DNA of 64,000 nt from Fictibacillus macauensis ZFHKF-1. Lineage in GTDB: Bacteria > Bacillota > Bacilli > Bacillales > Fictibacillaceae. Shown here in pieces: positions 44,288-64,000 of this stretch (position 1 is the first letter of the stretch; each line of letters begins with the position of its first letter). The DNA lies in the NCBI RefSeq assembly GCF_000269865.1, contig NZ_AKKV01000027.1, forward strand, positions 62,001 to 126,000, written 5' to 3'. The notes beneath the pieces are model-generated. The model saw only the letters and a list, made by a program, of their open reading frames with translations. It was not told the DNA's origin and did not search any database. The position numbers and the translations under genes were made by a program.

Positions 44288-44296
44288 AGTGATCAT

Positions 44297-44596
44297 ATGA
44301 CAATGAGCGTGCAAGGTGTAACGAATGTAGCGTCAATACCGCTAACGGAGAACATACAACAAGTAAAAGAAAGCGAAGGTTCATTTGCTACGGTCTTACA
44401 GAACATGCTTCAGGAAACGAATGGCTATGAACAAGCTTCTAATCAGGCGACTAATCAGCTATTAACAGGAAAAACCGATGATATTAGTTCGGTAATGGTA
44501 TTAGCTGAAAAGGCAAACTTAACGTTACAAACAGCCGTTGAAGTAAGGAATAAAGTTTTAGAAGCCTATCAAGAGATTATGAGAACACAACTATAG
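44297..44596 (+). CDS. fliE: Flagellar hook-basal body protein FliE
   Basis: The 99-residue MS-ring/rod junction protein has FATVLQNMLQETN and the C-terminal MVLAEKANLTLQTAVEVRNKVLEAYQEIMRTQL helix pair of the family (quoted in part for recognition: VLEAYQEIMRTQL). It begins 9 bases after flgC. A 72-base AT-rich gap follows before fliF, holding a small GAGG/CCTC stem. Confidence 0.95.
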   Translation: MTMSVQGVTNVASIPLTENIQQVKESEGSFATVLQNMLQETNGYEQASNQATNQLLTGKTDDISSVMVLAEKANLTLQTAVEVRNKVLEAYQEIMRTQL

Positions 44597-44668
44597 AAAT
44601 CATTATATTATTTCGTTTTTGAATTGTTTTTTTGAGGGTAACCTCATGAACAACATGTGGAGGAGATC

Positions 44669-46237: not shown

Positions 46238-46247
46238 GAGGGAAATC

Positions 46248-47258: not shown

Positions 47259-48039
47259 AATTATTAAAGCCTCAGAAATTAATCATACAGCTTCTTTTAA
47301 GCCTGTTCATCTTCATCAACTGCTCTACGCAACAGCGTTTGCGCAAGCGGATGAAGAAGACTGCTCTACACGTTTGATGGAGGAAGCGCTTCAAGCAAAA
47401 AAAGAAGCAGATGTATATAAAGAAGAGTTGCAAAAGCAACATCAAGCAGAAGTGGAGTATGAGAAACAACAAGTGCAAATTGAAATAGAGCAATTACGTA
47501 AAGAAACACGACAACAGGCGTATGAAGAAGGAGTAAGCCAAGGACAAGCGGAAGGTCGTGCGCATTATGATGAAGCACTACAACAAGTCAATAAGCTTAC
47601 ACAATTAGCACAGAAAGAGTATGAAAGTCATATCGAAAAAGCGACACCGATAATTATAGAGCTTGCTGTTGAGTTAGCGCAAAAAGTAGTCGGTGCCTCA
47701 TTTGAACAAGATGAGCAAACATTCGTTTCTGTTCTGAAGCAACTTTTATTGGAATTAAAAATGAATCACGCTATTCGCTTGTATGTGCCGGTTTCTTGGT
47801 ATGAAGCAACGCTTTGTGCAAAAGAAGATTTAGAAAGTGTGCTGGAGAAAAAAGATACTTTATCGCTTTATCCAGACGAACAGTTACAAGGAAATGATTT
47901 TTACGTGGAATATCCCGGTGGGAAGATTGAAGGTGGGCTTGATCGCCAGTTACTACAACTGAAAGAAAAATTGCAAGAATATGTTGAGGAGCACAACCAT
48001 GAACGTGCCGGCATTAAAAACAATTATACAAAAAAGTAA
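47245..48039 (+). CDS. fliH: Flagellar assembly protein FliH
   Basis: The 264-residue negative regulator of the FliI export ATPase has a long coiled coil (about 40-150, rich in Glu, Gln and Lys). A C-terminal V-ATPase subunit E-like domain (IIELAVELAQKVVGASFEQDE onward) follows. It is somewhat longer than B. subtilis FliH. It starts inside fliG behind GGAGGAGAGG and its end overlaps fliI by 41 bases. Confidence 0.93.
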   Translation: MSLCKIIKASEINHTASFKPVHLHQLLYATAFAQADEEDCSTRLMEEALQAKKEADVYKEELQKQHQAEVEYEKQQVQIEIEQLRKETRQQAYEEGVSQGQAEGRAHYDEALQQVNKLTQLAQKEYESHIEKATPIIIELAVELAQKVVGASFEQDEQTFVSVLKQLLLELKMNHAIRLYVPVSWYEATLCAKEDLESVLEKKDTLSLYPDEQLQGNDFYVEYPGGKIEGGLDRQLLQLKEKLQEYVEEHNHERAGIKNNYTKK

Positions 48040-49318
48040 TAGCTATAAATATTATGGCAGAGTGACAAAGGTTGTAGGGTTAACGATTGAATCATCTGGC
48101 CCGCGTGCCTCCATTGGTGATCTTTGTTATATCCATCTTGGGGATAATCACCAAAAAAAGGTGAGTGCAGAAGTGGTTGGTTTTCATGAAGATCGCGTAT
48201 TGCTTATGCCTTTTGCACCCATTAAAGAAATGGCAGTAGGTAGTCTCGTAGAGGCGACCGGTCAGTCTGTTTCTATTGGTGTTGGACCCGCTTTAATTGG
48301 TCAAGTTATTGATGCATTAGGGAAGCCGTTAGATGGTGTTTCATTAAAAGGGCTCGTAAACGTCCCAACAGATCAAGAACCGCCAAATCCCCTTTCAAGA
48401 CCGAGAATTAAAGAGGTTATGTCTGTTGGTGTTCGCTCTATTGATAGTGCATTAACTGTTGGAAAAGGTCAAAGAATGGGTATTTTTGCTGGAAGTGGTG
48501 TTGGGAAAAGTACGTTACTAGGTATGATTGCACGAAATTCAATGGCTGACGTCAATGTAATTGCTTTAATCGGGGAACGCGGTCGTGAAGTAATGGACTT
48601 TATTGAAAGAGATCTTGGAGAGGAAGGGCTCAAGAAGTCTGTTGTAATTGTCGCAACGTCAGATCAGCCAGCACTTATGCGCCTAAAAGGAGCCATGACA
48701 GCAACAGCAATCGCTGAATATTTTAGAGATTGTGGCATGAATGTCATGCTGATGATGGATTCGGTTACACGCTTTGCGATGGCGCAACGAGAAATTGGCT
48801 TAGCTGTAGGAGAACCACCTACAACAAAAGGGTATACACCATCTGTGTTTGCTTTATTGCCTAAATTGTTAGAGCGGTCAGGGATGAGTGAGCATGGATC
48901 CATTACGGCATTTTATACGGTGTTAGTTGATGGAGATGATATGAATGAGCCCATTGCGGATAGTGTTCGCGGCATTTTAGATGGTCATATCGTACTAGAT
49001 CGTTCCCTCGCCCATAAAGGTCAATTTCCAGCCATTGCGCTATTAAAAAGCGTTAGCCGTGTGATGAATGACTTGATTGACGCTACGCATAAAGAGGCAG
49101 CCGCCAGTCTTCGCAAGCTGTTAGCTACGTATTTAGAGGCAGAAGATTTAATTACCATTGGAGCTTATAAAAAAGGATCATCAGCTTCTGTTGATCACGC
49201 TATTAAACAGCATCCAAAAATTATTTCTTTTTTACAACAAAGTGTAGATGAGCCTGCTGATTTTTACGAGACACTTCATCGTCTACTTCAAGAGTTTGGG
49301 GGAGAAACAAGTTCATGA
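47999..49318 (+). CDS. fliI: Flagellum-specific ATPase FliI
   Basis: The 439-residue F1-beta-like ATPase powers type III flagellar export. Walker A is GIFAGSGVGKSTLLG (about residue 163). GERGREVMDFIERDL and the Walker B region NVMLMMDSVTRFA are intact. The ATG at 47999 follows GAGGAGCACAACC inside fliH. The stop overlaps the fliJ start (ATGA). Confidence 0.97.
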   Translation: MNVPALKTIIQKSNSYKYYGRVTKVVGLTIESSGPRASIGDLCYIHLGDNHQKKVSAEVVGFHEDRVLLMPFAPIKEMAVGSLVEATGQSVSIGVGPALIGQVIDALGKPLDGVSLKGLVNVPTDQEPPNPLSRPRIKEVMSVGVRSIDSALTVGKGQRMGIFAGSGVGKSTLLGMIARNSMADVNVIALIGERGREVMDFIERDLGEEGLKKSVVIVATSDQPALMRLKGAMTATAIAEYFRDCGMNVMLMMDSVTRFAMAQREIGLAVGEPPTTKGYTPSVFALLPKLLERSGMSEHGSITAFYTVLVDGDDMNEPIADSVRGILDGHIVLDRSLAHKGQFPAIALLKSVSRVMNDLIDATHKEAAASLRKLLATYLEAEDLITIGAYKKGSSASVDHAIKQHPKIISFLQQSVDEPADFYETLHRLLQEFGGETSS

Positions 49319-49752
49319 TCTTTGAATTTAAAATGGAAAAATTATTAAGACTTAAAATTCGTGAAAAAGAACAAGCAGAAGTGAGCTATGCGGCGAGTGT
49401 CGATCGCTTTGAAGAACTAGCACAAACACTTTTTCAATTATTAAAGCAACGAGAGCGGATTGAAGAGCATTCTTCACATCAGTTTCGTCAAAAAGTCGTT
49501 ATTAACGAATTGCAACAAACGCAACGCTTTCTGCTTTCCTTATCACAACGAATTGCTGATTTACATGAGCGCGTATTACATGCACGTAGAGAAATGAATG
49601 AGGCTCAGCAATGGTTAGTTGAAAAAACAACAGACGTGAAAAAACTAGAAAAATTAAAAGAAAAACGAGAAGAAGTTCATAAAGAACACATTCGTCTTTA
49701 TGAAATGAAAGAAAGTGATGAAGTAGCCGTAAGACGTTATATCAACGTATAA
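49315..49752 (+). CDS. fliJ: Flagellar export chaperone FliJ
   Basis: The 145-residue all-helical coiled-coil protein is the central stalk-like component linking FliI to FlhA. It starts MIFEFKMEKLLRLKIREKEQAE, as in Bacillus FliJ, and is rich in Glu, Gln and Arg throughout. Translationally coupled to fliI. Confidence 0.93.
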   Translation: MIFEFKMEKLLRLKIREKEQAEVSYAASVDRFEELAQTLFQLLKQRERIEEHSSHQFRQKVVINELQQTQRFLLSLSQRIADLHERVLHARREMNEAQQWLVEKTTDVKKLEKLKEKREEVHKEHIRLYEMKESDEVAVRRYINV

Positions 49753-49766
49753 AAAGGAGTGGTTAT

Positions 49767-50315
49767 TTGGAGAAGAAAGGTGTAGCTCGTCGATTTCTTC
49801 TTTCCATTGTCTTCTCACTTCTGTTCCTTTGCCTTTCATTAGGCTTGATTTTATCCTTCTTAGGTTGGAATGTGTGGGAGGACGTTAAGAAAAACGTTCC
49901 TTTATTCTCTTCATCGGTTACAGCGCAAGACGATCATGATGAGACAAAAGACAATGAGGCGTATTGGAAGAAGAAAGATGCAGAGCGTGAAAAAACAGTG
50001 AGTCAATTGAAGCAAGCGATGACTAGTAAAGACGAAGAATTACAAAAAATGAAGACGCAACTAAAGCAGCTACAATCAGAAAAAAAGAAAGAAACGAAAA
50101 AAGTCATAAAAGAACCCCACGTAAATACAACGCAACTAGCTAGCTGGTACGAGACGATGTCTCCCAAAAAAGCTGCGGTTATCTTTGAAAAAATGAAACT
50201 AAAAGAAGTAAAACAAGTATTACATACGTTAGATGATGACGTATCGAGTGCCATATTAGAAAAAATGTCGCCAACACAAGCAGCAAAGCTAACAGCCATG
50301 ATGAATAAAAAATAG
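49767..50315 (+). CDS. ylxF: MotE/YlxF family flagellar protein
   Basis: The 182-residue membrane-anchored protein has one N-terminal transmembrane helix (about 8-32). A Lys/Glu-rich coiled coil (about 60-115) follows, then a C-terminal MgtE_N-like domain (WYETMSPKKAAVIFEKMKLKE). MotE-like proteins are thought to be chaperones or stator-associated factors. The start is TTG 49767 behind AAAAAGGAGTGG. It lies between fliJ and fliK as in B. subtilis. Confidence 0.88.
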   Translation: MEKKGVARRFLLSIVFSLLFLCLSLGLILSFLGWNVWEDVKKNVPLFSSSVTAQDDHDETKDNEAYWKKKDAEREKTVSQLKQAMTSKDEELQKMKTQLKQLQSEKKKETKKVIKEPHVNTTQLASWYETMSPKKAAVIFEKMKLKEVKQVLHTLDDDVSSAILEKMSPTQAAKLTAMMNKK

Positions 50316-50334
50316 TGAAATAGGAGGAAAGCTC

Positions 50335-51873
50335 ATGGAATTGGCAAACGGTGTGGAAGTGCTTTTTCGAAAACAAGCGATACCAGTTACGACAAAAAAG
50401 GAAGAAAACGCGTCATTGCTAGCATCCTTTCATAGCTCACTTCAGGCTGCTACTTCAAAAGAGGAAGAGCAGGAGCAATCGGGAACGTTTGAGGAAGAAG
50501 CGCAAAGAGTGATTGAAGCGTGCAATGAGTGGTTGGAAGAAATTTCTCACTTGTCAGATGGTGAACGCATGCAAGCTTTTGAAGAGTATAGCGCCTTATT
50601 TTTCTCCTCACAAAAGGGAGGTGATACTAATCCTGTAACAAGCGATGATCAACCGTTAACTGCTGTTCAAGAAAAAGCGCTTCACGTTTTTCAGCTACTT
50701 GCTGGCTTACACCAACAATACAGTGGCTATGAGCGAGGTAATCAATGGCGACAAGAAATGGTTCACAGTCAGGAGTCGACCGTAAATGACATTTTAACGC
50801 AAATGCAACGTTCTTTGACACAGCTCATGGATCAAAGCGGGAGAACCGAAGAGAAGAATGCGAAGGGTGTTTTATTATCCGAAATGCTAAGAACCTTTTT
50901 GGAACAAGAAACGGTCAGATTACAAGCTCCAAAACAAGAAGCAACCATTATGTTAGATGCGCTTCGAGAAGCACGTCTCCCTCGGTTTGTAAAGGAGATG
51001 GAGGGAGGAAATAACCTAAATAGCGTGATTTCCGAAGAAACAAACGAAGAAAAACAGTTATCTATGTCTCGTTTACGCGACAAGCTTTCCATCGAAGCCC
51101 TCTCGCGTTCCTTTAGTTCATTAAGTGGTCCAGCAGTAATGACTGAAAAGGCTGTCACGAATGAGCAACGTATCTTTTTAGCCATGATGAAGGGTGAAAC
51201 CGAAGTAAACAGAGCTTCATCTCAAGAGAATAAAGGAATAGGTGCGGTCTCTACTACGGTGGATTTAGCAGGTCAGCTGACATCTTCTAGTGATCAAGAG
51301 CCATTTTTCTCGGAAAAAATACTGCAAGAAAAGGCTGGTCTATCGACACTGCGTGATGAGAGGTTAACAGACTTTTCAATGCCACGCGTTCTCAGTATGG
51401 AAGGTGTAGCCCTAGGTCGGATAAATAGGGATGAATCCTCATCATCCCCGCTTTTGCGCACGGTGCTTCGAGATCTACAACAATGGACAATGCAACAACA
51501 CATGAACGCTGAGATCGGCGAACCTTTAACGGCCCTTCGCATTAGGCTAACACCGGAAGCGCTCGGAACCCTTTCAATAGAAATGATGAAAGAAAACGGG
51601 AAATTGTTCGCTAAGATTGTCACTACTTCTAGTGGCGCAAAAGAACTAGTAGAAGCCAACATTCATGTATTAAAGTCGGCGTTTCAAGAGAGCGGTACAA
51701 GGATTTCCGAAGTTGTCGTTCAAGAAGAAACGGGGACAACGCCGCAACCATTTAACGATCATCGTTCCAAGCAAGAGCATCGAGAGAACCAAGAGCAACG
51801 AGAGGAACGCAAGGTGGAAACTGATTTTTTACACGTATTAATGGAAACGACACAGGAGGAGAGTGACATATGA
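50335..51873 (+). CDS. fliK: Flagellar hook-length control protein FliK
   Basis: The 512-residue secreted molecular ruler has a long low-complexity N-terminal region rich in Glu, Gln and Ser. A conserved C-terminal domain (about 395-470) follows, containing LRIRLTPEALGTLSIEM, a pattern typical of Flg_hook domains. The charged Arg/Glu/Gln tail is variable. The stop overlaps the flgD start (ATGA). The N-terminal part is weakly conserved, so the identity rests on the C-terminal domain and position. Confidence 0.9.
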   Translation: MELANGVEVLFRKQAIPVTTKKEENASLLASFHSSLQAATSKEEEQEQSGTFEEEAQRVIEACNEWLEEISHLSDGERMQAFEEYSALFFSSQKGGDTNPVTSDDQPLTAVQEKALHVFQLLAGLHQQYSGYERGNQWRQEMVHSQESTVNDILTQMQRSLTQLMDQSGRTEEKNAKGVLLSEMLRTFLEQETVRLQAPKQEATIMLDALREARLPRFVKEMEGGNNLNSVISEETNEEKQLSMSRLRDKLSIEALSRSFSSLSGPAVMTEKAVTNEQRIFLAMMKGETEVNRASSQENKGIGAVSTTVDLAGQLTSSSDQEPFFSEKILQEKAGLSTLRDERLTDFSMPRVLSMEGVALGRINRDESSSSPLLRTVLRDLQQWTMQQHMNAEIGEPLTALRIRLTPEALGTLSIEMMKENGKLFAKIVTTSSGAKELVEANIHVLKSAFQESGTRISEVVVQEETGTTPQPFNDHRSKQEHRENQEQREERKVETDFLHVLMETTQEESDI

Positions 51874-52250
51874 ATATAAACATTAACAATGATTTACTGT
51901 TACCAACTACGAAAACAGCAGCTCCAAAAGCTACTCTCGGTAAAGATGAGTTTCTGAAACTACTAATGGTACAGCTTAAAAATCAGGATCCAGCGAGCCC
52001 AATCGACGATAAACAATTTATTTCCCAAATGGCCACATTTACCTCATTAGAACAGCTAACGAATTTAAATCAATCGATGAAAGCATTGGCTGATAGCACG
52101 TTGATTGGCAAACAGATCAAATATCAAAAAGAAAATGGCACTCCTACAGAAGGTGAAGTGAAAAGTGTGTTATTTAAAAATGGCGCGACACAACTGCAAT
52201 TGAAAAATGATGTCGTTATTGAGCGCAATCAACTTCTTCAAGTGATGTAG
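51870..52250 (+). CDS. flgD: Flagellar hook assembly (capping) protein FlgD
   Basis: The 126-residue protein has the FlgD N-terminal core (LGKDEFLKLLMVQLKNQDP and FISQMATFTSLEQLTNLN). The tudor/Ig-like C-terminal part of proteobacterial FlgD is lacking, which is usual for Bacillus, though it is slightly shorter than B. subtilis FlgD. It scaffolds hook polymerisation. Coupled to fliK. Confidence 0.94.
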   Translation: MNININNDLLLPTTKTAAPKATLGKDEFLKLLMVQLKNQDPASPIDDKQFISQMATFTSLEQLTNLNQSMKALADSTLIGKQIKYQKENGTPTEGEVKSVLFKNGATQLQLKNDVVIERNQLLQVM

Positions 52251-52294
52251 TTTTTGTTTTTTTATATGGTGTAAATCAAAGAGGGGGATAAGAG

Positions 52295-53080
52295 ATGTTA
52301 CGTTCACTGTATTCAGGAATTAGCGGAATGAAAAATTTTCAAACGAAATTAGATGTGATTGGAAATAACATTGCTAACGTCAATACCTATGGTTTTAAAA
52401 AAGGAAGAGTAACCTTTAAAGATTTAGTCAGTCAGCAACTTGCACAAGGTACGGTCGGAACGAATCCGAAGCAAGTAGGCCTCGGCTCTGGCGTTGCAAC
52501 GATTGATACAGTGGATACACAAGGTAGTCCACAAACGACTGGCAGGCCGCTTGATGTGGCAATTGAAGGAGATGGTTACTTTCTTGTGCAGTCACCTGGA
52601 GGCAACTTTTTAACGCGTGCGGGTAATTTTTACTTAACGCCAGACGGTGACGAGCGCAAACTCGTTACAGCAGATGGGTATGCCGTACTTGATGTTGACG
52701 GTGCAGAAATCAAAATTCCAAAAGAAGCAAAAAGTTATAGCATTGGATCAGATGGATCGGTAACTATTGTGACGGATACGGGTACAACGAGCGATCAAAA
52801 ACTGGGACTTGTCACCGTGCCAAATCCGGGTGGCTTAGAAAAAACAGGAAGTAACTTATATCGCATTGGTCCTAATTCTGGTGAACATTCTTCTCCGGCA
52901 TTAGTCCCAGGAAGTGGTGGAGCGGGCAAACTCATAAGTGCTTCTCTCGAAATGTCGAACGTAGATCTATCCGAAGAATTTACGGAAATGATTGTAGCGC
53001 AACGTGCTTTTCAGTCAAATACAAAAATTATTACAACGTCTGATGAAATATTACAAGAGCTTGTTAATTTAAAACGATAA
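52295..53080 (+). CDS. flgE: Flagellar hook protein FlgE
   Basis: The 261-residue axial protein starts MLRSLYSGISGMKNFQTKLD and ends FQSNTKIITTSDEILQELVNLKR-like (last 13: SDEILQELVNLKR). It closely follows B. subtilis FlgE (once named FlgG). It is a minimal hook protein with no large D2/D3 insert. By homology alone it could be called flgG; position after flgD and before swrD supports the hook role. AGGGGG precedes the start. Confidence 0.93.
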   Translation: MLRSLYSGISGMKNFQTKLDVIGNNIANVNTYGFKKGRVTFKDLVSQQLAQGTVGTNPKQVGLGSGVATIDTVDTQGSPQTTGRPLDVAIEGDGYFLVQSPGGNFLTRAGNFYLTPDGDERKLVTADGYAVLDVDGAEIKIPKEAKSYSIGSDGSVTIVTDTGTTSDQKLGLVTVPNPGGLEKTGSNLYRIGPNSGEHSSPALVPGSGGAGKLISASLEMSNVDLSEEFTEMIVAQRAFQSNTKIITTSDEILQELVNLKR

Positions 53081-53093
53081 GAAGGTGAGGAGA

Positions 53094-53122
53094 CCGGAGT
53101 GAACGGCAACGATTCATTCCGG
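53094..53122 (+). promoter_or_regulatory. Hairpin between Shine-Dalgarno and start codon of swrD
   Basis: CCGGAGTGAA (53094-53103) pairs with TTCATTCCGG (53113-53122), ten pairs with one G-T. The only good Shine-Dalgarno (GAAGGTGAGG, 53081-53090) lies 40 bases before the swrD ATG. With the stem folded it would be about 10 bases away. Confidence 0.65.
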
Positions 53123-53129
53123 CAACGTC

Positions 53130-53351
53130 ATGATTGAATTAACAAAACTAAATGGTGAAACGTTTACATTACATGCTGTATGGATTGAACATATTCAAGC
53201 GTTTCCGGATACGACAATTACGCTTACATCGGGAAAGAAGTTCGTAGTTTTAGAGAAACCAGAAGAAGTGAAAGCTCGTGTCATGACATTCTATCAAACA
53301 GCCTCTCCCTATTCGACCTGCTTACATCCCCAAAAGGAGGAAAGTAAATGA
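53130..53351 (+). CDS. swrD: FlbD/SwrD family flagellar power protein
   Basis: The 73-residue protein begins MIELTKLNGETFTLHAVWIEHIQ. In B. subtilis SwrD raises motor torque and supports swarming. No Shine-Dalgarno is adjacent to the ATG; a hairpin and a 12-codon frame (GTG 53099, stop 53135-53137) overlap the start region. The stop overlaps the fliL start (ATGA). Confidence 0.93.
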   Translation: MIELTKLNGETFTLHAVWIEHIQAFPDTTITLTSGKKFVVLEKPEEVKARVMTFYQTASPYSTCLHPQKEESK

Positions 53352-53791
53352 GCGCAGAATCAATGCCCCCCAAAAAGCGAAATGGCTTGTTTATAGTAGT
53401 TATTGCAGTGCTTATCGCTAGTGGCGCAATGCTTTATTTTCTCTTTTTTAACGAGAAAGAGAAAGCCTATGGAAGCGATCCAGGGGCTGAGGATCTTGCC
53501 CAGCTAACTGTGGAGACGAAGGAAATTATTACAAACCTAAAAGACCAATCGTATATTAAAACAAAATTCCGATTCCAAACAGATACGGCGGAAGCGAAAG
53601 AAGAGCTAGAACAACGCCTTTTTCAAGTAAATCATCTTGTCATTTATGAATTAGCTGCTTTCAATCGTAAAGAGCTTCAAGGACAGCAAGGAATAAGTAA
53701 GCTTGAAGAACGTTTAAAACGACAAACAGCTCAACTTCTGCAAAAAGGCTCCATTCAAAAAGTGTATACGGTTGAAAAGGTTGTTCAGTAA
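53348..53791 (+). CDS. fliL: Flagellar basal body-associated protein FliL
   Basis: The 147-residue single-pass protein has a transmembrane helix at about 14-36 (LFIVVIAVLIASGAMLYFLF) and an extracellular domain related to stomatin rings around stators. It is needed for full torque. The start overlaps the swrD stop behind AAAAGGAGG. Confidence 0.92.
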   Translation: MSAESMPPKKRNGLFIVVIAVLIASGAMLYFLFFNEKEKAYGSDPGAEDLAQLTVETKEIITNLKDQSYIKTKFRFQTDTAEAKEELEQRLFQVNHLVIYELAAFNRKELQGQQGISKLEERLKRQTAQLLQKGSIQKVYTVEKVVQ

Positions 53792-53816
53792 GTAACAACC
53801 CACAAGGAGAAGAGAA

Positions 53817-54797
53817 ATGACAGAAGTATTATCACAAAATGAAATTGATGCGCTACTTTCTGCGATTTCAACCGGTGAAATGGATGCAGAAGAGCTAAAA
53901 AAAGAAGAAAACGAGCGACGTATAAGAACGTATGACTTTAAGCGAGCGCTGCGTTTTTCTAAAGATCAAGTAAGAAGTATTACGCGCGTACATGAAAATT
54001 TTGCTCGTTTATTAACAACCTATGTTTCTGCTCAATTGCGAACCTATGTGCAAATATCTGTTGCTTCAGTCGACCAATTGCCTTATGAAGAATTCATACG
54101 TTCGATCCCAAGGATGACGATTTTAAATCTATTCGAAGCCGCGCCTTTACCTGGACGCCTTTTAATAGAAGTAAATCCGAATATTGCCTATAGCATGTTA
54201 GACCGCTTATTAGGAGGGCATGGGACGAGTGTCAATAAGGTAGCTTCGTTAACAGAAATAGAAACAACCATCCTTTCACAGTTGTTTCGTGGCTCGTTAT
54301 CAAGTTATCAAGAAGCGTGGAGTACGGTCGTAGATATAGAGCCGACAATGCTTGATTTTGAAGTGAATCCACAGTTTTTACAAATGGTTTCTCCGAATGA
54401 AACCGTCGTTGTTATTTCATTAACAACAACGATCGGCGAAACAAGTGGCATGATGAATGTTTGTTTACCACATGTTGTATTAGAACCGGTTATGCAAAAA
54501 CTATCGGTTCATTATTGGATGCAGCATCAGAAGAAAACGCTAGAGCCAGAAGAACAAGATTGGATACAAGAACGAATTAAACGTTCAGATCTAGCAATAA
54601 TTGCTGAATTAGGTCGCTCTACGATGACTGTTCAAGATCTTATGGAATTAACAGAAGGTGACGTGCTGTTGTTAGATCAAAAATTAACTGCGCCGCTTTC
54701 TGTGTATGTAGATGAAAAGAAAAAGTTCCTGGCTCAGCCGGGAAGAGTCAACCGGCAGCTCGCTGTGCAAATGCTTGTTGATTTAAAGGAGGAATAA
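53817..54797 (+). CDS. fliM: Flagellar motor switch protein FliM
   Basis: The 326-residue C-ring protein has the N-terminal CheY-P-binding motif LSQNEIDALLSAI, a CheC-like middle domain (about 45-230) and a C-terminal SpoA/FliN-like domain (about 245-320). CAAGGAGAAG precedes the ATG. Followed by fliY within 4 bases. Confidence 0.97.
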   Translation: MTEVLSQNEIDALLSAISTGEMDAEELKKEENERRIRTYDFKRALRFSKDQVRSITRVHENFARLLTTYVSAQLRTYVQISVASVDQLPYEEFIRSIPRMTILNLFEAAPLPGRLLIEVNPNIAYSMLDRLLGGHGTSVNKVASLTEIETTILSQLFRGSLSSYQEAWSTVVDIEPTMLDFEVNPQFLQMVSPNETVVVISLTTTIGETSGMMNVCLPHVVLEPVMQKLSVHYWMQHQKKTLEPEEQDWIQERIKRSDLAIIAELGRSTMTVQDLMELTEGDVLLLDQKLTAPLSVYVDEKKKFLAQPGRVNRQLAVQMLVDLKEE

Positions 54798-54800
54798 GGC

Positions 54801-55826
54801 ATGCTATCTCAAGATGAAATTGATGCATTGCTTGCAAAAGAAGAAGCGGTGAGTGAAGGAATTGAACATTACTTAACAGGAATGGAACAAGATGCGCTCG
54901 GAGAAATAGGGAACATTTCTTTTGGTAGTGCGTCAACAGCGCTTTCAGCATTGCTACATCAAAAAGTCCAAATTACAACGCCAATGGTTTCTATTATTGA
55001 AAAGAAAAATTTAGAGGAAGAATTTCCAACGCCTCACGTAGCTGTCAAAGTAGAGTACGTTGAAGGAGTAGAAGGAACCAATTTACTCGTCATTGAAACG
55101 AAGGACGCACAAATTATCGCAGATCTTATGTTAGGTGGAGATGGGAGGAATCCTGCTGAAACATTCGGAGAACTCCAACTTAGCGCCGTAGGTGAAGCGA
55201 TGAATCAAATGATGGGATCGGCTTCGACATCCCTTTCGACTATTTTTCAAAAGAAAGTCGATATCTCGCCTCCTACCATTGAGAATTTAAATGCGAATAT
55301 TCCATTTCCTGTAGATGAAGATATTCTTATTAAAGTATCCTTTCGATTGAAAATTGGTAGTTTAGTAGATTCAAGCATTATGCAACTGATTAAAGTAGAT
55401 TTTGCGCAACTGCTCGTTAAAGGACTGCTGCAAAGACAGGAGTCGGCTGCAACAGTTGAGGCTGTTATGCCGACAACGCACGAGTTACCGCCTAAAGAAA
55501 GTGTAGCCGTTCAGTCCGCTGTATTTTCTCCGTTTCATGAAGAAACGGTTGTTGTGCAGGAGCAAGAACCTTCGATTGAACGACTGCTTGATATTCCATT
55601 GCAGTTAACCGTCGAATTAGGAAGAACACGTCGTACCATTCAAGAAATATTAGAAATGGCTCCAGGTTCAATTGTGGAGCTTGATAAGTTAGCTGGTGAG
55701 CCGGTAGATATTTTAATCAATCAAAAGCTCGTAGCTAAGGGAGAAGTGGTTGTCATTGATGAGAATTTCGGCGTGCGCGTAAATGAAATTGTGAGCCGTA
55801 AAGCCCGTTTAATGAACTTAAAATAA
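54801..55826 (+). CDS. fliY: Flagellar motor switch phosphatase FliY
   Basis: The 341-residue C-ring protein carries the same MLSQDEIDALLA CheY-binding opening as FliM. A CheC-type domain has two phosphatase sites (DALGEIGN and AVGEAMNQ, each with the Glu and Asn). A C-terminal FliN domain (about 265-341) ends it. It dephosphorylates CheY-P at the switch. The linker before FliN looks shorter than in B. subtilis. AAAGGAGGAATAAG precedes it. Confidence 0.95.
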   Translation: MLSQDEIDALLAKEEAVSEGIEHYLTGMEQDALGEIGNISFGSASTALSALLHQKVQITTPMVSIIEKKNLEEEFPTPHVAVKVEYVEGVEGTNLLVIETKDAQIIADLMLGGDGRNPAETFGELQLSAVGEAMNQMMGSASTSLSTIFQKKVDISPPTIENLNANIPFPVDEDILIKVSFRLKIGSLVDSSIMQLIKVDFAQLLVKGLLQRQESAATVEAVMPTTHELPPKESVAVQSAVFSPFHEETVVVQEQEPSIERLLDIPLQLTVELGRTRRTIQEILEMAPGSIVELDKLAGEPVDILINQKLVAKGEVVVIDENFGVRVNEIVSRKARLMNLK

Positions 55827-55852
55827 ATAGATTTTTTGGAGGAGAGAGAAGG

Positions 55853-56215
55853 ATGAGTAAACGTATTTTAGTCGTTGATGATGCAGCTTTTATGAGAATG
55901 ATGATTAAGGATATTTTAATTAAAAATGGCTATCATGTGGTGGGAGAAGCCGCTGATGGTGCTGAGGCTGTTGAGAAATATAAAGAGCTAATGCCTGACT
56001 TAGTAACTCTTGATATTACAATGCCAGAAGTGGATGGAATTGCGGCGTTAAAGGAAATTCGTAAGCACCATTCTGACGCTAAAGTGATTATGTGCTCAGC
56101 GATGGGGCAACAGTCTATGGTGATTGATGCCATACAAGCAGGAGCAAAGGATTTTATCGTAAAGCCATTTCAGGCAGATCGCGTAATTGAAGCGATTTCG
56201 AAAACGTTGAGCTAA
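55853..56215 (+). CDS. cheY: Chemotaxis response regulator CheY
   Basis: The 120-residue single receiver domain has acidic residues in VVDDAAFMR (about 8-10), phosphoacceptor Asp in DLVTLDITMPEVDG (about 54), CSAMGQ (Thr/Ser switch) and the Lys in DFIVKPF. CheA phosphorylates it; CheY-P binds FliM/FliY. GGAGGAGAGAAGG precedes the ATG. Confidence 0.97.
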   Translation: MSKRILVVDDAAFMRMMIKDILIKNGYHVVGEAADGAEAVEKYKELMPDLVTLDITMPEVDGIAALKEIRKHHSDAKVIMCSAMGQQSMVIDAIQAGAKDFIVKPFQADRVIEAISKTLS

Positions 56216-56222
56216 TGTTCTG

Positions 56223-56885
56223 ATGGTGATGATAAAGAACAAGCTGTATATAAGCTTGCTTTGCCTTTTCATCGTGTGTGTAGGCGTAGTAAGTCCGCGC
56301 GCTGTCATAAAAGCAGAGGCAGCGTGTCTTACCGTTTACGAATGTACAGATCATGCGAAGGAAAAAGAAGACAAGCAGACTGGAGCATTAGAAGAGCAGT
56401 CAACGAAAGATCTTTACGGCAATGGTTTTGTAGCGATGTTTAAAGTAATTGCCGCACTAATTTTTGTAATTGGTTTATTGTATGGCGTATTAAAGTTTTT
56501 AAAAAAACGTAGTAAAGGCTTTAAAGAAAAGCAAGGAATGAATACGTTGGTCGGTGTAGGTTTGGGTGGTAATAAGTCCATCCAAGCAGTGAAAGTCGGT
56601 TCAGCAGTTTTTATCGTCGGTATAGGTGAAAATATTACGTTGTTAAAAGAAGTAGTAGATCCTCAAGAAGTTGAGCAATGGTTGCTCTCTCCAAATCGTA
56701 CGCAAACGACAACCGAGAGGCCTCATTCATTCTTTGGGCGCAAAGGTAAAAAAGGACCATCACGCTTCTCTGTAGAGCTAAAAACACGTCTTCGGCAAAT
56801 AAATGATGAGCGATCATCATTTGTTCAAAAGCTGTCAAAGGAAGGGAAAACGCATGAACAATCTACTGCCAAAGATCAATCTTGA
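56223..56885 (+). CDS. fliZ: Flagellar biosynthetic protein FliO/FliZ
   Basis: The 220-residue export-gate assembly protein has an N-terminal signal-like hydrophobic segment (about 8-27). A short external stretch and a second helix (about 72-92, FKVIAALIFVIGLLYGVLKFL) follow. The cytoplasmic FliO domain (GLGGNKSIQAVKVGSAVFIVGIG) ends with a basic tail. ATG 56223 or 56229 are both possible. The 3' end overlaps fliP by 32 bases. Confidence 0.9.
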   Translation: MVMIKNKLYISLLCLFIVCVGVVSPRAVIKAEAACLTVYECTDHAKEKEDKQTGALEEQSTKDLYGNGFVAMFKVIAALIFVIGLLYGVLKFLKKRSKGFKEKQGMNTLVGVGLGGNKSIQAVKVGSAVFIVGIGENITLLKEVVDPQEVEQWLLSPNRTQTTTERPHSFFGRKGKKGPSRFSVELKTRLRQINDERSSFVQKLSKEGKTHEQSTAKDQS

Positions 56886-57534
56886 CTTCCTTAACGGCGC
56901 TAGTGGCTCTACTGAAACGACGATTCAGCTATTACTCTTATTGACGATTCTTTCGGTTGCACCGAGCATTTTACTGCTAATGACGTGTTTTACACGCATT
57001 GTGATTGTGCTGTCTTTTGTAAGAACTTCATTAGCCACCCAACAAATGCCTCCAAACCAGGTGCTGATCGGCATTGCATTATTCTTAACGATTTTTATTA
57101 TGGGCCCTACGTTTTCTCAAATAAATCACGATGCTGTAAAACCACTTATTGACGGCAAGATTACGCAACAACAGGCGTATGAAAAAGGCGCTAAACCGTT
57201 AAAAGAATTTATGACAAAGCATACGAGAGAAAAAGATTTAGAGCTCTTTTTAAACTATACAAAAGCAAAAAAACCAGCGCATGTAAATGATATTCCGATG
57301 CGTGTGCTCGTTCCGGCCTATGCCATTAGTGAATTAAAGTCAGCGTTTCAAATGGGTTTTATGATTTTTGTGCCATTTCTCGTTATTGATATGGTCGTAG
57401 CAAGTATTTTAATGGGGATGGGCATGATGATGTTGCCACCCGTTATGATCTCGTTACCTTTTAAGCTACTGCTATTTATATTAGTCGATGGCTGGTATTT
57501 AATCGTAAAATCCTTGCTATCAAGCTATGGATAA
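56854..57534 (+). CDS. fliP: Flagellar export gate protein FliP
   Basis: The 226-residue membrane protein forms the FliP5-FliQ4-FliR1 export pore. Hydrophobic segments (about 23-43, 65-85, 165-185, 190-215) and the family motif FTRIVIVLSFVRTSLATQQ are present. ATG 56854 follows AAAGGAAGGG inside fliZ; a longer start is rejected. Confidence 0.96.
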   Translation: MNNLLPKINLDFLNGASGSTETTIQLLLLLTILSVAPSILLLMTCFTRIVIVLSFVRTSLATQQMPPNQVLIGIALFLTIFIMGPTFSQINHDAVKPLIDGKITQQQAYEKGAKPLKEFMTKHTREKDLELFLNYTKAKKPAHVNDIPMRVLVPAYAISELKSAFQMGFMIFVPFLVIDMVVASILMGMGMMMLPPVMISLPFKLLLFILVDGWYLIVKSLLSSYG

Positions 57535-57546
57535 GAAGGTGTTTGG

Positions 57547-57819
57547 ATGAATGCAGAAATGGTTATCTCCATCGCGGAAAAAGGTGTATATACCACACTG
57601 ATGGTTGCTGGTCCGCTCTTGTTGCTTGCTTTGGTTGTTGGTTTGCTTGTTAGTATCTTTCAAGCTACAACGCAAATTCAAGAGCAAACACTTGCCTTTA
57701 TTCCTAAAATAGCAGCTGTGCTCATTGCGTTGATCTTCTTTGGACCATGGATGCTAAGCGAGATGGTGACATTTACATATGATATTTTTAATAACTTGGA
57801 ACGATTTGTAGGAGCGTAA
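57547..57819 (+). CDS. fliQ: Flagellar export gate protein FliQ
   Basis: The 90-residue protein has two transmembrane helices (about 17-40 and 52-72) around the conserved VSIFQATTQIQEQTLAFIPKI loop. It begins 12 bases after fliP and ends 4 bases before fliR. Confidence 0.97.
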   Translation: MNAEMVISIAEKGVYTTLMVAGPLLLLALVVGLLVSIFQATTQIQEQTLAFIPKIAAVLIALIFFGPWMLSEMVTFTYDIFNNLERFVGA

Positions 57820-57823
57820 AAGA

Positions 57824-58606
57824 ATGATTGAAACGCTACCAGCTATATTGCTTGTTTTTATACGTATTTCTGTTTTTTTGGCAACGGCGCCTGTGTTTTC
57901 CTATCGAACGATCCCTGTGACCTTTCGCTTAGGTGGTGCAGGATTTCTAGCGGTAATTGTAGTGATGACGATGGGGGCACCCCACATTCCACTATCGCTT
58001 CATTTCATCGTTGCTCTCCTTTTGGAGGGATTGATTGGAATGTTGCTCGGTTTACTTGCTTCCTTCCTATTATATGGTGTTCATATTATCGGAGGTTTTC
58101 TGGATTTACAAATGGGTTTTGCCATTGCGGGAGTGATTGATCCGCAAACAGGTATCCAAACACCGCTAATGGGGAAGTATTTATATCATTTTGCCATGCT
58201 ATTGTTGTTTATAACGAATGGACATTACATGTTACTCGATGGCATCTTTTATAGCTATCAGTTCGTACCCATTGGCGGTCATGTAGACCTTTCAGCGGGT
58301 GAAGTGGCAAATTATGCGGTTACGGTTTTCACAGCCATGTTTCTCATCGCTTTTCAATTGGCCATGCCCATTGTCGGAACGCTTTTTCTCGTTGACCTTG
58401 CATTAGGTATTGTAGCGAGAACGGTACCGCAAATTAATGTATTTGTAATTGGTTTGCCATTAAAAATTCTTGTTGCCTTTGTCATTTTATTATTGGTCTT
58501 ACCCCTCTTTTTTTCTGGCATACACATGTTAAGTCGCGAAACAGCGAGTGTAATGCGACATTTGCTTCAACTATTACAGGAGAACTTACATGAGGTTACA
58601 ACTTGA
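57824..58606 (+). CDS. fliR: Flagellar export gate protein FliR
   Basis: The 260-residue polytopic membrane protein has about six hydrophobic segments. LEGLIGMLLGLLASFLLYG and GGFLDLQMGFAIAGVIDPQTG are the family's conserved blocks. The last 17 bases overlap flhB, which suggests coupled synthesis of gate components. Confidence 0.96.
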   Translation: MIETLPAILLVFIRISVFLATAPVFSYRTIPVTFRLGGAGFLAVIVVMTMGAPHIPLSLHFIVALLLEGLIGMLLGLLASFLLYGVHIIGGFLDLQMGFAIAGVIDPQTGIQTPLMGKYLYHFAMLLLFITNGHYMLLDGIFYSYQFVPIGGHVDLSAGEVANYAVTVFTAMFLIAFQLAMPIVGTLFLVDLALGIVARTVPQINVFVIGLPLKILVAFVILLLVLPLFFSGIHMLSRETASVMRHLLQLLQENLHEVTT

Positions 58607-59697: not shown

Positions 59698-61728
59698 ATG
59701 AAAGCAAGAGATTTAAGCGTGCTATTAGGTGTCATTATGATTATCGTCATGTTAATTATCCCCTTACCAACATGGATGCTTGATTTTTTTATCATCATTA
59801 ATATTACACTGGCGCTCATCATTATCTTAATCGCAATGAATATGCAGGAGCCGCTTCAATTTTCAATATTTCCTTCGTTGCTCCTTCTGGTTACGTTATT
59901 TCGACTCGGTTTGAATGTATCGACGACAAGGTCCATTTTAGGAAACGGAAAAGCGGGAAATGTGGTCCATACATTCGGAGAGTTCGTTGTCGGAGGAAAT
60001 ATATTAGTCGGAATTGTGGTTTTCTTTATACTCGTAGTCATTCAATTTATCGTCATTACAAAAGGATCGGAACGTGTTTCTGAAGTAGCGGCGCGCTTTA
60101 CGTTGGATGCTATGCCTGGAAAACAGATGAGTATCGATGCCGACTTAAATGCAGGGATGATTTCCGATCAAGAAGCAAGACATCGACGCAACAAAGTAGA
60201 GAGAGAGTCTGATTTCTATGGAGCGATGGACGGAGCGAGTAAGTTTGTAAAAGGTGATGCGATTGCTGGCATTGTCATTGTATTTATTAATATGTTGTTT
60301 GGCATCATTATCGGAACCACACAAATGGGCTTTGATTTTGCAAAAAGCGCACAAACGTTTACGTTATTAACAGTTGGAGACGGGCTCGTCTCTCAAGTGC
60401 CTGCACTAATTATTTCAACAGCCACCGGGATTATCGTTACACGCGCTGCATCAGAAGGCAATTTAGGATTTGACGTTTCCAAACAATTGTTAGCGTATCC
60501 AGACATGTTAGTAGTAGCCGGTGGAACCATTATCGCGCTAGGGTTATTTACGCCCATTAATGATCTCGTTACCCTTCCAATTGGTGGAATAGTTGCTGCC
60601 GGTGGTTATGTACTTCGAAGAGGAGCAGCTAAGAAAAAAGCGGAAGAGAAAGAGGAGAAGGAAATAGCGATTGAACCGATGAAAAGTCCTGATAGCGTCA
60701 TGCCGTTATTGCAAGTTGATCTTATCGAATTTCAATTTGGATATGGATTAATTCCACTCGCTGATTCTTCACAAGGAGGCGATCTCCTCGATCGCATCGT
60801 GATGATTCGTCGCCAATTAGCCTTAGAGCTTGGCATTGTCGTTCCTGTTGTGCGCATTCGCGACAATATACAACTTCAACCTAATGAATATTGTATGAAA
60901 ATTAAAGGAACAGAAGTGGCGAGAGGGAAATTAATGCTGTCTCGTTTTCTCGCCATTAGCTCAGGTATTGATGAGGACAGTATTGAAGGTGAACCGGCTA
61001 TTGAACCTGCCTTCGGACTCGATGCCTTATGGATAGAGGAGGGCAAAAAAGAGCAGGCTGAACAGCTCGGTTATACCGTAGTTGATCCACCATCTGTTGT
61101 ATCGACGCACATAACAGAAGTTATTCGTAGGCATGCTCATGAACTTCTCGGTCGACAAGAAACGAAGCAGCTGCTTGATTATATGAAAGAACACTATCCG
61201 TCGTTAATAGATGAAGTGACGCCTGATCCATTATCGATTGGAGAAATACAAAAAGTATTAGCGAAGCTATTAAAAGAAAAAATTTCCATTAAAAATTTAC
61301 TTGTTATTTTTGAGACGCTAGCAGACTTTGGAAAATTATCCAAAGATCTTGATTTGTTAACAGAGTATGTACGTCAAGCGCTTTCTCGGCAAATTTCACA
61401 ACAATATGCAAAAGTAGGGGCGTCCTTACCGGTATTAACGTTAGGAGCGGAAGTAGAGAAACTAATTGCAGAACATGTGCAGCAAACAGACTATGGAAAT
61501 TATTTAACGTTAGAACCGGGAGATTCACAAGCAATCTTTGCGGCGATTGAGAAGGAAATAAGCCGCAATGTCGGTGTGATGACAGAGCCAATCTTACTAT
61601 GTTCACCAGCAGTTAGGATGTATGTTAGACAACTAGTAGAACGCTACTTACCTCATCTTGTCGTTCTCTCTTATAACGAATTGGAGCCAGATGTGGAAGT
61701 ACAATCAGTAGGTGTGGTACAACGATGA
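59698..61728 (+). CDS. flhA: Flagellar export gate protein FlhA
   Basis: The 676-residue export motor component has about eight N-terminal membrane segments (about 7-320) with the FHIPEP-type signature region (PSLLLLVTLFRLGLNVSTTR). A large cytoplasmic domain (about 330-676) docks chaperone-substrate complexes. Length matches B. subtilis FlhA. Its stop overlaps the flhF start (ATGA). Confidence 0.97.
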   Translation: MKARDLSVLLGVIMIIVMLIIPLPTWMLDFFIIINITLALIIILIAMNMQEPLQFSIFPSLLLLVTLFRLGLNVSTTRSILGNGKAGNVVHTFGEFVVGGNILVGIVVFFILVVIQFIVITKGSERVSEVAARFTLDAMPGKQMSIDADLNAGMISDQEARHRRNKVERESDFYGAMDGASKFVKGDAIAGIVIVFINMLFGIIIGTTQMGFDFAKSAQTFTLLTVGDGLVSQVPALIISTATGIIVTRAASEGNLGFDVSKQLLAYPDMLVVAGGTIIALGLFTPINDLVTLPIGGIVAAGGYVLRRGAAKKKAEEKEEKEIAIEPMKSPDSVMPLLQVDLIEFQFGYGLIPLADSSQGGDLLDRIVMIRRQLALELGIVVPVVRIRDNIQLQPNEYCMKIKGTEVARGKLMLSRFLAISSGIDEDSIEGEPAIEPAFGLDALWIEEGKKEQAEQLGYTVVDPPSVVSTHITEVIRRHAHELLGRQETKQLLDYMKEHYPSLIDEVTPDPLSIGEIQKVLAKLLKEKISIKNLLVIFETLADFGKLSKDLDLLTEYVRQALSRQISQQYAKVGASLPVLTLGAEVEKLIAEHVQQTDYGNYLTLEPGDSQAIFAAIEKEISRNVGVMTEPILLCSPAVRMYVRQLVERYLPHLVVLSYNELEPDVEVQSVGVVQR

Positions 61729-62726
61729 ACATAAAAAAATATAGAGCTACTACGATACAACAGGCGCTTGAAGCGATTGCGAGTAAAGAAGGAAACGAAG
61801 CAGTTATTTTATTTAATCGTGACGTTTATGACGGAGGATTTCTCGGCTTTTTTACAAAAAAGCAAGTTGAGGTAACGGTGTTGGTTGATGATGATCATGA
61901 AGCGGCAACCGTCAATGAGAAGCAGTGGAACGATTATAAGGAGTGGTTAGTGCGACTTGAAGAAAGTGGATTAGCACAGTCGCTTTGTTGCGAAATAGAA
62001 AGAGTCTTACTGCCATATGTAAGAGGCGACTCTTCACATTCAATCGAACACTTGCTTTTTCAATGGTTTTTGGAGCAATTAGATCATCAAGTACGAAGTT
62101 TTCAAGCAAAAACTCGCTTTTTATTTTTTAGTGGACCGTCTGGAGGTGGGAAAACAACGTGTATTGCGAAAATCGCTGCACACGAAGTTTTAACAAAAGG
62201 TACAAACGTGGCACTCATTACAACCGATACGAGGCGGGCAGGAGCCATTCAGCAATTAAAAGTGTATAGTGATGCATTGCACATTCCATTTCAAGTTGCG
62301 TACTCTGAAGACTTTCTACAAAAGGCGCTCCAACGATTTGCATCGTATGATCTCGTGTTAGTGGATCAGCACAGTGAGCAAGCTGTGCTGTTTCCGAATG
62401 AAACGTTCAATATGAGCGATGACGTGGTAGTAGAAAGCGCGAATATTTTAGTAGTTCCAATGACTTCTAACTATAAAGATGTAAAACAAGTCTTAAAGGC
62501 TTACCAAGGAAGGCAACCCCTTCAGATGGTGATTACAAAGGTGGATGAAACGGTCTCACTAGGTTTGCTGCTCAATCTGATGATTTTACATAAGCTTCCT
62601 GTAATGTATATGACGAATGGACATTCCATACCAGAAGACTTATTTGTACCTTCTCATACATCGATTGTCTCTCTTTATTTGCAGCAATGTAAACAACAGC
62701 CTCCTTCTATGAAGAGGAATACGTAA
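61725..62726 (+). CDS. flhF: SRP-type GTPase FlhF, with a degenerate G3 motif
   Basis: The 333-residue protein (B. subtilis FlhF is longer, about 366) sets flagellar number and position in many bacteria. The N-terminal B domain starts MNIKKYRATTIQQALEAI and keeps GGFLGFFTKKQ. G1 is GPSGGGKTTCIAK (about 138-150), G2 region DTRRAGAIQQLK, and G4 is TKVDET. The G3 block, DTAGR in SRP GTPases, reads DQHSEQ here. FlhG (ylxH), its activator, is missing downstream. GTP hydrolysis may be lost or altered. The start overlaps flhA. Confidence 0.92.
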   Translation: MNIKKYRATTIQQALEAIASKEGNEAVILFNRDVYDGGFLGFFTKKQVEVTVLVDDDHEAATVNEKQWNDYKEWLVRLEESGLAQSLCCEIERVLLPYVRGDSSHSIEHLLFQWFLEQLDHQVRSFQAKTRFLFFSGPSGGGKTTCIAKIAAHEVLTKGTNVALITTDTRRAGAIQQLKVYSDALHIPFQVAYSEDFLQKALQRFASYDLVLVDQHSEQAVLFPNETFNMSDDVVVESANILVVPMTSNYKDVKQVLKAYQGRQPLQMVITKVDETVSLGLLLNLMILHKLPVMYMTNGHSIPEDLFVPSHTSIVSLYLQQCKQQPPSMKRNT

Positions 62727-62755
62727 AAAAAGTGTATAAAAGACAATAGTTGGTC

Positions 62756-62783
62756 TAAAGAAATAGCCTTTTTTTACCGATAA
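62756..62783 (+). promoter_or_regulatory. Sigma-D promoter candidate upstream of cheA
   Basis: TAAA (62756-62759), 16 bases, then ACCGATAA (62776-62783), six of eight matches to the sigma-D -10 GCCGATAT including the whole CCGATA core. It lies 60 bases before cheA in the only sizeable gap in this part of the operon. Confidence 0.6.
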
Positions 62784-62843
62784 AAATAAGAGTACCTTAA
62801 CAAGCAATGGGAAAGAAGGCTTTTGGGAGAGGAGTCTGTAAAT

Positions 62844-64000
62844 GTGGAAAATGAAGCTTACTTAGCACTTTTTATTGAAGAAAGTAAGGAACATGTGCAA
62901 CGGCTAAATAATCAGCTATTGCTGTTAGAGAAAAATCCTGAAGATTTGGAGACTATTAAGGAAATTTTCCGTTCAGCTCACACGCTAAAAGGAATGGCGG
63001 CTTCCATGGGCTTTGAACATTTAACCGCGTTAACACATGCGCTAGAAAATATTTTAGATGCACTTTTAAACCAAGCGCTAGACGTGTCACAAGAAGTAGT
63101 AGATGGTTTATTGACTGCATGTGATGTTTTAGAAGATATGATCAGCTCCATAGAGGAAGGGCACGAAAACCCGCACGATATTTCCGGAATTGTCGCAATG
63201 TTAGAAGAGATTGCAACCGCTCAACCTCAAGAAACGTTGAGAAAAAGTGTAAACATTCAGCACGCAGATTCTCAACGAGGTGAGGGAGAAACGTTATATG
63301 ACGTGCGCGTATCCTTAAGTGATGATTGTGCGTTAAAAGCGGTGCGTGCTTACATGATTGTCCAGGCGTTAGAAGAGGATGGGTACATTGTTGAAGCGAA
63401 TCCACCTCTTGAAGCAATGGGAGGACGATTTCAAGAGAAGGATCTCTCGTTTCTTTATCGTACAAAGCAGAAAGAAAGTGAGATTAAGAACAGACTAAAC
63501 AGTATTTCTGAAATAAAGGCGATGGTTGTCCATCCGCATTCCCAAAGTGACGGAACGCCGAAAAAAGGAGATAAAACAAGCCCTACTAAAACAATTCGAG
63601 TGAGCATGGAACGCTTGGATCATTTAATGAATTTATTTGAAGAACTTGTTATTGATCGAGGCCGACTTGAGAAAATTGCGCTTGATGTAGAGCATGTGGA
63701 GTTACAAGAAACAGTAGAACGGATGTCACGTATTTCCTCTGATTTGCAAGATATCGTGCTAACGATGCGGATGGTACCTATCGAGCAAGTTTTTAATCGC
63801 TTTCCGAGAATGATTCGAAGTTTAGCGAAAGATTTAGGGAAAAAAGTGCAATTAACGATAGAGGGTGAAAGTACAGAGTTGGATCGAACGGTCATTGATG
63901 AGTTGGGCGATTCACTCGTTCACTTATTAAGAAATAGCATGGATCATGGCATTGAATTACCTCACATTAGGCAACAACAAGGAAAAAAAGAGCATGGAAC
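62844..64000 (+). CDS. cheA: Chemotaxis histidine kinase CheA, 5' part
   Basis: The frame is open to the window end, giving about 385 residues. P1 holds the phosphorylated His in FRSAHTLKGMAASMGF (about residue 46). A P2 CheY-binding region (about 150-225), the P3 dimerisation helices (IRVSMERLDHLMNLFEELV, about 253-320) and the N-box of the ATPase domain (LVHLLRNSMDHGIE) follow. The start is GTG 62844 behind GAGAGGAG. An out-of-frame ATG at 62842 gives only seven codons. It follows flhF directly; cheB, usually before cheA, is absent. Confidence 0.96.
   Translation, partial: MENEAYLALFIEESKEHVQRLNNQLLLLEKNPEDLETIKEIFRSAHTLKGMAASMGFEHLTALTHALENILDALLNQALDVSQEVVDGLLTACDVLEDMISSIEEGHENPHDISGIVAMLEEIATAQPQETLRKSVNIQHADSQRGEGETLYDVRVSLSDDCALKAVRAYMIVQALEEDGYIVEANPPLEAMGGRFQEKDLSFLYRTKQKESEIKNRLNSISEIKAMVVHPHSQSDGTPKKGDKTSPTKTIRVSMERLDHLMNLFEELVIDRGRLEKIALDVEHVELQETVERMSRISSDLQDIVLTMRMVPIEQVFNRFPRMIRSLAKDLGKKVQLTIEGESTELDRTVIDELGDSLVHLLRNSMDHGIELPHIRQQQGKKEHG

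Follow-up and report, generated by a model that had tools for sequence, protein, structure and literature searches.

Published studies assign the glutamine of the DQAxxLR helix of FlhG a co-catalytic role in the signal recognition particle (SRP)-type GTPase FlhF, where it favours the transition of the active dimer to an inactive monomer (PMC12826062), and in Bacillus subtilis they describe Gln8 of FlhG as critical for stimulating GTP hydrolysis by FlhF, and the N-terminal 36 residues of FliY as binding FlhG (PMC12327844). Others report an FlhF without an FlhG homologue in Bacillus cereus (PMC7218170, PMC5069341), where FlhF has 439 residues and forms a GTP-dependent homodimer (PMC7218170), and an FlhG homologue without DQAxxLR, FleN, in Pseudomonas aeruginosa (PMC12713375); whether the placement role of FlhF needs GTP hydrolysis or GTP binding alone is described there as differing among the species studied (PMC12713375, PMC12826062). 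B. cereus is therefore a precedent for an FlhF that does without FlhG. Here we describe the flhF of Fictibacillus macauensis ZFHKF-1 (G000; draft genome, 3.74 Mb, 55 contigs, 99.99% complete), encoded in a window of 64,000 nucleotides (the whole stretch of DNA analysed, bases 62001–126000 of contig C27), in which the DxxG of the G3 motif has been lost in a genome without flhG. Judged from its sequence, this is a real, unusual FlhF with its GTPase switch taken apart, and we give about an even chance to the reading that it binds nucleotide and is no longer cycled by FlhG.

In the fla/che operon flhA is followed immediately by this gene, and the features are these (window coordinates).

59698–61728, forward strand: flhA, intact, immediately 5' of flhF (TIGR01398, 906.9 bits; cut-off 772.1)
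61725–62726, forward strand: flhF, a 333-residue SRP-type GTPase with an altered G3 (Pfam SRP54, 4e-27)
62133–62162, forward strand: G1 (P-loop), GPSGGGKTTC, kept, with the changes T139S, V141G and T146C
62226–62243, forward strand: G2, DTRRAG (consensus DTYRIA), with the conserved Asp, Thr and Arg retained
62364–62381, forward strand: G3 site, DQHSEQ replacing D[ST]AGRN, with the Asp codon at 62364–62366 and then a three-residue insertion
62535–62552, forward strand: G4, TKVDET, kept
62727–62843, forward strand: 117-bp gap between flhF and cheA, the site of flhG (plus cheB in most relatives), with no remnant seen
62844–64000, forward strand: cheA, extending beyond the window from a GTG start at 62844, then cheW, cheD, sigD and swrB, without cheC

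G1, G2 and G4 are present in this FlhF and DxxG(R) is missing, from a G3 loop that is three residues longer than in relatives. An earlier note on this DNA had reported that FlhF keeps G1 and G4, as it does, and that DQHSE stands in place of DTAGR; the change of motif holds, although its position is 62364–62381 and not 62353–62370, some 10 bases away. The junction was also described correctly, with flhF ending at 62726, cheA starting at 62844 and no trace of flhG or cheB in the 117 bp between: all frames were read, and none in the gap resembles either gene. An in-frame TTG lies at 62823, upstream of the cheA GTG. A draft of 55 contigs leaves some room for an assembly or sequencing error, but such an error can hardly explain the change: D-[STA]-x-G is absent from every frame of 62330–62450 and no frame restores the motif, the flhF frame is intact, the flagellar locus sits within a 188-kb contig, and other conserved positions have changed by substitution too.

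Several comparisons identify the protein as FlhF. PF00448, the SRP54-type NG GTPase domain, matches at 95.6 bits (cut-off 22.7), and the NCBIfam FlhF model TIGR03499, at 156.4 bits and so under its equivalog cut-off of 174.15, is still the best among 13 families. An AlphaFold model has the SRP GTPase fold, with a predicted local distance difference test score (pLDDT) of 86.1 overall and 54 at residues 221–230, and a fold search with it returned the FlhF crystal structures 2px3, 2px0 and 8r9r as the top three (E about 4e-16 for 2px3 and 2px0); 2px0, 2px3 and 3syn we take to be B. subtilis FlhF. That protein, the best match in sequence and in fold, shares the SRP-type fold, the P-loop, the G2 Asp and Arg and G4, and differs in that B. 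subtilis has DTAGRN and FlhG. Relative to 101 FlhF sequences (95 distinct) from loci with a P-loop FlhG, this FlhF retains 40 of 54 near-invariant residues, including the P-loop Lys and Thr residues, Asp168 and Arg171 of G2, and Lys272, Asp274 and Glu275 of G4; the G1 Lys and Thr, Asp168, Arg171, Lys272 and Asp274 presumably contact the nucleotide. Three of the 14 lost are consecutive (G217S, R218E and N219Q), and about half of the remainder look like conservative changes. The retained residues fit the GTP-binding scaffold that had been proposed.

The new loop offers an explanation of its own, in which the active site has been rebuilt in cis and Q215 or Q219 (in SEQAVLF, like DQAxxLR) takes over from the glutamine of FlhG. 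The new loop holds the only [DE]QA of this FlhF, at a chance of about 0.4% in 8 positions, a figure that flatters the match because the pattern was picked after being seen. The model places a short helix at 217–222, but the loop is unreliable there, as the low pLDDT at 221–230 indicates, and the 38 other sequences in the model alignment come from relatives whose G3 is of the usual kind, so that the modelled loop carries little information. We regard a cis-acting glutamine as highly improbable.

The absence of flhG noted for the operon extends to the whole genome, and an intact copy elsewhere was sought by three routes. An FlhG query gave four weak matches, with a best E of 1.1e-20 among the three listed; in 31 of the 34 genomes of the family the same query finds FlhG at E 7.9e-62 or better. 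A search with profile A3 gives no FlhG hit here at the threshold of E ≤ 1e-45. The six PF01656 matches genome-wide comprise MinD (TIGR01968, 402 bits; cut-off 212.9), a protein of the tyrosine-autokinase type above its cut-off, two part-length stretches, below cut-off, whose closest families are ParA partition and ApbC/Mrp proteins, and two adjacent longer proteins (frames of 518 and 479 residues) outside the family scan. No FlhG with P-loop and DQAxxLR helix was found; the FlhG query and the scanned proteins gave weak MinD/ParA-type relatives. FlhG might conceivably be replaced by MinD or by a short protein with an activating helix encoded elsewhere, given that MinD is present and that, as a review notes, flagellar control can pass to MinD in Escherichia coli (PMC12826062). 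We nevertheless hold a replacement activator to be highly improbable: the changed G3 would not be expected were an activator still acting there, and all frames of the window and of a 19-kb stretch with the downstream genes (L041) are free of a DQAxxLR-like motif, a short helix elsewhere not having been searched for.

We placed this genome among Bacillales by matching 397 genomes to profiles for FlhF (A2; 392 matches at E ≤ 1e-30, a threshold that SRP paralogues pass as well) and FlhG (A3; 362 matches at E ≤ 1e-45). Of the FlhG-less genomes, 15 were identified by comparing the two match lists by eye. Eleven genomes have FlhF and lack an FlhG match at E ≤ 1e-45; their loci were read individually, and the families of two were sampled further. 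The absence of FlhG was rejected for 8 of these 11, which have a protein without a P-loop but with DQAxxLR beside flhF, leaving three genomes with FlhF and no trace of flhG: this one, and G098 and G159 of genus g59. A further 'no flhG' call, L147 (G429), was also rejected, since flhG is present, and counted as complete. For most genomes of genus g26 (family f23) any FlhF match is no stronger than those of SRP paralogues, although three have flhF and flhG.

The P-loop-less proteins directly follow flhF in 12 genomes of g86, two of g39, two of g105 and G249 of g104 (loci L160–L173, L176, L177 and L106); G271, also of g104, has a P-loop FlhG. They span about 140 to 280 residues, with DQAxxLR at or near the start and no MinD-type P-loop motif found (for example, 191 residues at 2337–2912 of L160 and 144 residues at 2074–2508 of L172). 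No Pfam family is above cut-off in the six scanned, and when three of the g86 proteins are combined into a profile, 70 C-terminal columns align with FlhG at a probability of 89% and E 2e-6, from which we conclude that they are most likely reduced FlhGs. Whole-genome absence of FlhG in g86 was examined for G174, G291 and G311, and our literature searches returned no P-loop-less FlhG. These helix-only proteins separate, in living lineages, two jobs of FlhG, the activation of FlhF and the MinD-type ATPase. Their lineages resemble the present genome in having FlhG reduced, with no P-loop motif found, but the DQAxxLR helix is still encoded next to flhF in them, and DxxG is intact in their FlhF.

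The state of G3 could be set against that of FlhG in 148 Bacillales genomes. 'P-loop FlhG' means that the motif was seen beside flhF, as in 128 genomes of 69 genera, of which 60 were drawn from the best-scoring FlhFs and 8 from lower-scoring ones, with agreement between them; DQAxxLR is also present in 127 of the 128 (exception L115). The counts include interrupted flhF frames in G162, G136 and G420 (among the 128) and in G437 (g86), and leave aside G207 (split FlhF, FlhG present, unreadable G3), G415, G027 and G029. Split or interrupted flhF genes in L114 and L124 (G162), L120 and L125 (G207), L163 (G437) and contig C1 of G415 are possible pseudogenes or assembly errors.

All 128 genomes with a P-loop FlhG read D[ST][AST]GRN (DSAGRN 66, DTAGRN 58, DTSGRN 3, DTTGRN 1), and none has lost DxxGR; a relative that has flhG and carries the same G3 change, which would have spoken against a link with FlhG, was thus not found among them. 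The 17 helix-only genomes, from four genera, read DTAGRN (12), DTPGDN (3), DTAGDN (1) and DTEGRN (1), so that GRN is kept in 13, with DTAGRN retained in g39, g105 and G249. DTAGRN is absent from the three genomes without flhG (two genera), which read DTVGRS (both of g59) and DQHSEQ (this genome). Loss of DxxG is confined to this genome (0 of the 147 others), and loss of the Arg, within the Bacillales sample, to genera with reduced or absent FlhG: by genus, it is lost in 2 of 6 whose FlhG is reduced or absent and in 0 of 69 whose FlhG has the P-loop (Fisher p 0.005, with no correction made for phylogeny and with g1, the genus of this genome, and g104 counted on both sides). Outside the 148 stand 54 named loci (L050–L103), of which 44 with a P-loop FlhG read DxAGR[NS], four, also with a P-loop FlhG, are without the Arg, one with the helix and no P-loop reads DTVGMS, and five with no FlhG seen read DTAGRL (3, perhaps SRP paralogues), DTTGKN (1) and DSAGAP (1). 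The g86 genomes with Arg replaced by Asp are L161 (G433), L169 (G291), L170 (G174) and L171 (G311), reading DTPGDN or DTAGDN.

The proposed tie between loss of FlhG and change of G3 is therefore supported across these genomes as a correlation, resting on few events. B. cereus likewise retains FlhF without an FlhG homologue, but a GTP-dependent homodimer is reported there, and the g59 FlhFs of matching size (frame of 439 residues, 435 from the first start codon) read DTVGRS and keep DxxG; they retain 34 of the 54 near-invariant residues, with half of the losses within the N-terminal 52 residues and DxxGR intact. P. aeruginosa resembles this genome in that FleN is described without DQAxxLR, and differs in that FleN itself is present.

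If FlhF here binds nucleotide without being cycled, the mechanism might run as follows. The protein would still bind guanine nucleotide; cycling by FlhG would be impossible because the helix with the co-catalytic glutamine is gone, and little or no GTP would be hydrolysed. Once the helix had disappeared, the part of the FlhF site that serves hydrolysis would come under relaxed selection, while selection on nucleotide binding and on the recruitment of basal-body proteins would continue, giving a scaffold-like FlhF, a constitutive recruiter of early basal-body parts (GTP-bound or nucleotide-insensitive), with basal-body spacing set without a release step driven by FlhG. A stepwise route to this state is suggested by the series of genomes compared, in which FlhG may first lose its ATPase and keep the activating helix, and the helix may then go, leaving G3 free to change. 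More tentatively, and with some doubt, we propose that the FlhF–FlhG switch has been dismantled repeatedly and in this order in Bacillales, through ATPase loss, a bare helix and helix loss to a G3-less, nucleotide-binding, non-cycling FlhF scaffold. A naturally occurring FlhF that lacks both DxxG and its partner FlhG, in an operon where no other broken gene was seen, is a ready-made test of hydrolysis against binding.

Several observations weigh against a non-cycling, nucleotide-binding FlhF. Full loss of G3 is carried by one genome only. The FlhF of g59 keeps DTVGR without flhG, so loss of flhG does not force loss of G3, and in g86 Arg has become Asp in 4 of 12 genomes though the helix is kept. 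Outside Bacillales, four named loci with a P-loop FlhG are without the Arg (DTTGKN 2, DTAGLS 1, DTAGVD 1) and S. putrefaciens FlhF (8r9r) reads DTAGM; since the Arg varies there with FlhG present, what distinguishes this genome is that DxxG itself is lost. This FlhF has also lost 34–40% of the residues invariant in other relatives, compared with 1–13% for six other foregrounds on the same sets, and CheA too is loosened in this genome (16–21%); SigD (4–7%) and Dxr (2–4%) have lost few in the same comparison.

Such losses bear on the main rival, a serious one that we still judge rather unlikely, namely that FlhF became dispensable after the loss of flhG and is decaying, with G3 hit first on the way to a pseudogene and flagella placed without FlhF. 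Compared with nine relatives, FlhF shows the highest loss of invariant residues of 12 genes (34/98, against 44/269 in CheA, 26/308 in FlhA, where two relatives have partial sequence, and 6/134 in SigD; a flhA value for G024 was discarded as a partial-sequence artefact), its score lies below the curated FlhF cut-off, and flhF frames look broken in some other Bacillales, such as G162, G207 and G415. Yet the 333-codon frame is intact, the 40 near-invariant residues kept include those of G1, G2 and G4, and the FlhF:FlhA branch ratio (1.88:0.31, about 6) falls within the range of about 3 to 9 spanned by relatives, so that no excess rate is visible in FlhF and rate alone is no proof of a special event. 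Decay stays serious because the state is known from one genome, with no close strain for comparison.

The earlier note had grouped the absence of flhG with that of cheB and allowed that cheB could lie elsewhere. It is indeed missing from the operon, and PF01339 has no match anywhere in the genome (6 of 14 control genomes are positive, including B. subtilis), but its loss is a separate matter. Among 34 family genomes FlhF is found in 32, FlhG in 31, CheB in 29 and CheR in 34; G021 and G030 are without FlhF, FlhG and CheB, and this genome is the sole one with FlhF but without FlhG. Two members of the same genus, Fictibacillus solisalsi (G024) and G020, have no cheB genome-wide and keep flhG and DTAGRN, in the order flhF-flhG-cheA-cheW-cheD, and no cheC occurs within the 17-kb stretches read in them; G022, G023 and G025 retain flhG, cheB and cheC. 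A core tree (eight proteins, 2288 positions) places this genome outside six other g1 species with bootstrap 100; the cheA gene tree groups them differently, with support of 53. On the evidence of the two cheB-less relatives and the core tree, we reject the idea that flhG and cheB went together in a single event. Going by these genomes, cheB has been lost in at least two lineages unless regained, and the loss of flhG is without parallel in the other g1 species. Our literature searches yielded neither a precedent for cheB loss nor a usable description of motility.

At L041, L043 and L044 (this genome, G024 and G020), the operon is without cheB and cheC while cheR, elsewhere, and cheD stay, so that a methyltransferase is left without the CheB methylesterase; CheD follows cheW in all three. 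In G021 (L178, L179), the 36 kb covered in the codY–proS region yielded a single fla/che protein, SigD, encoded before rpsB.

The flagellar operon around flhF looks intact in sequence, as follows.

43461–58606, forward strand: rest of the flagellar operon, from flgB as far as fliR, where none of the genes was seen to be broken (the fliH, fliJ, ylxF and fliZ positions lie outside the family scan)
54801–55826, forward strand: fliY, with the N-terminal LSQDEIDALL motif kept

FlgB, FlgC, FliE, FliF, FliG, FliI, FlgD, FlgG, FliM, FliY, FliP, FliQ, FliR, FlhB, FlhA and SigD pass their curated cut-offs; FliL falls under its own (126.4 of 140), CheY and CheD have matches only below cut-off, and the frame at the fliK position gave no match in the NCBIfam scan. 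The names of cheW and swrB, downstream of cheA, come from gene order and similarity. In fliY, the segment right after LSQDEIDALL is three residues shorter than in G020, G024, G023 and G025.

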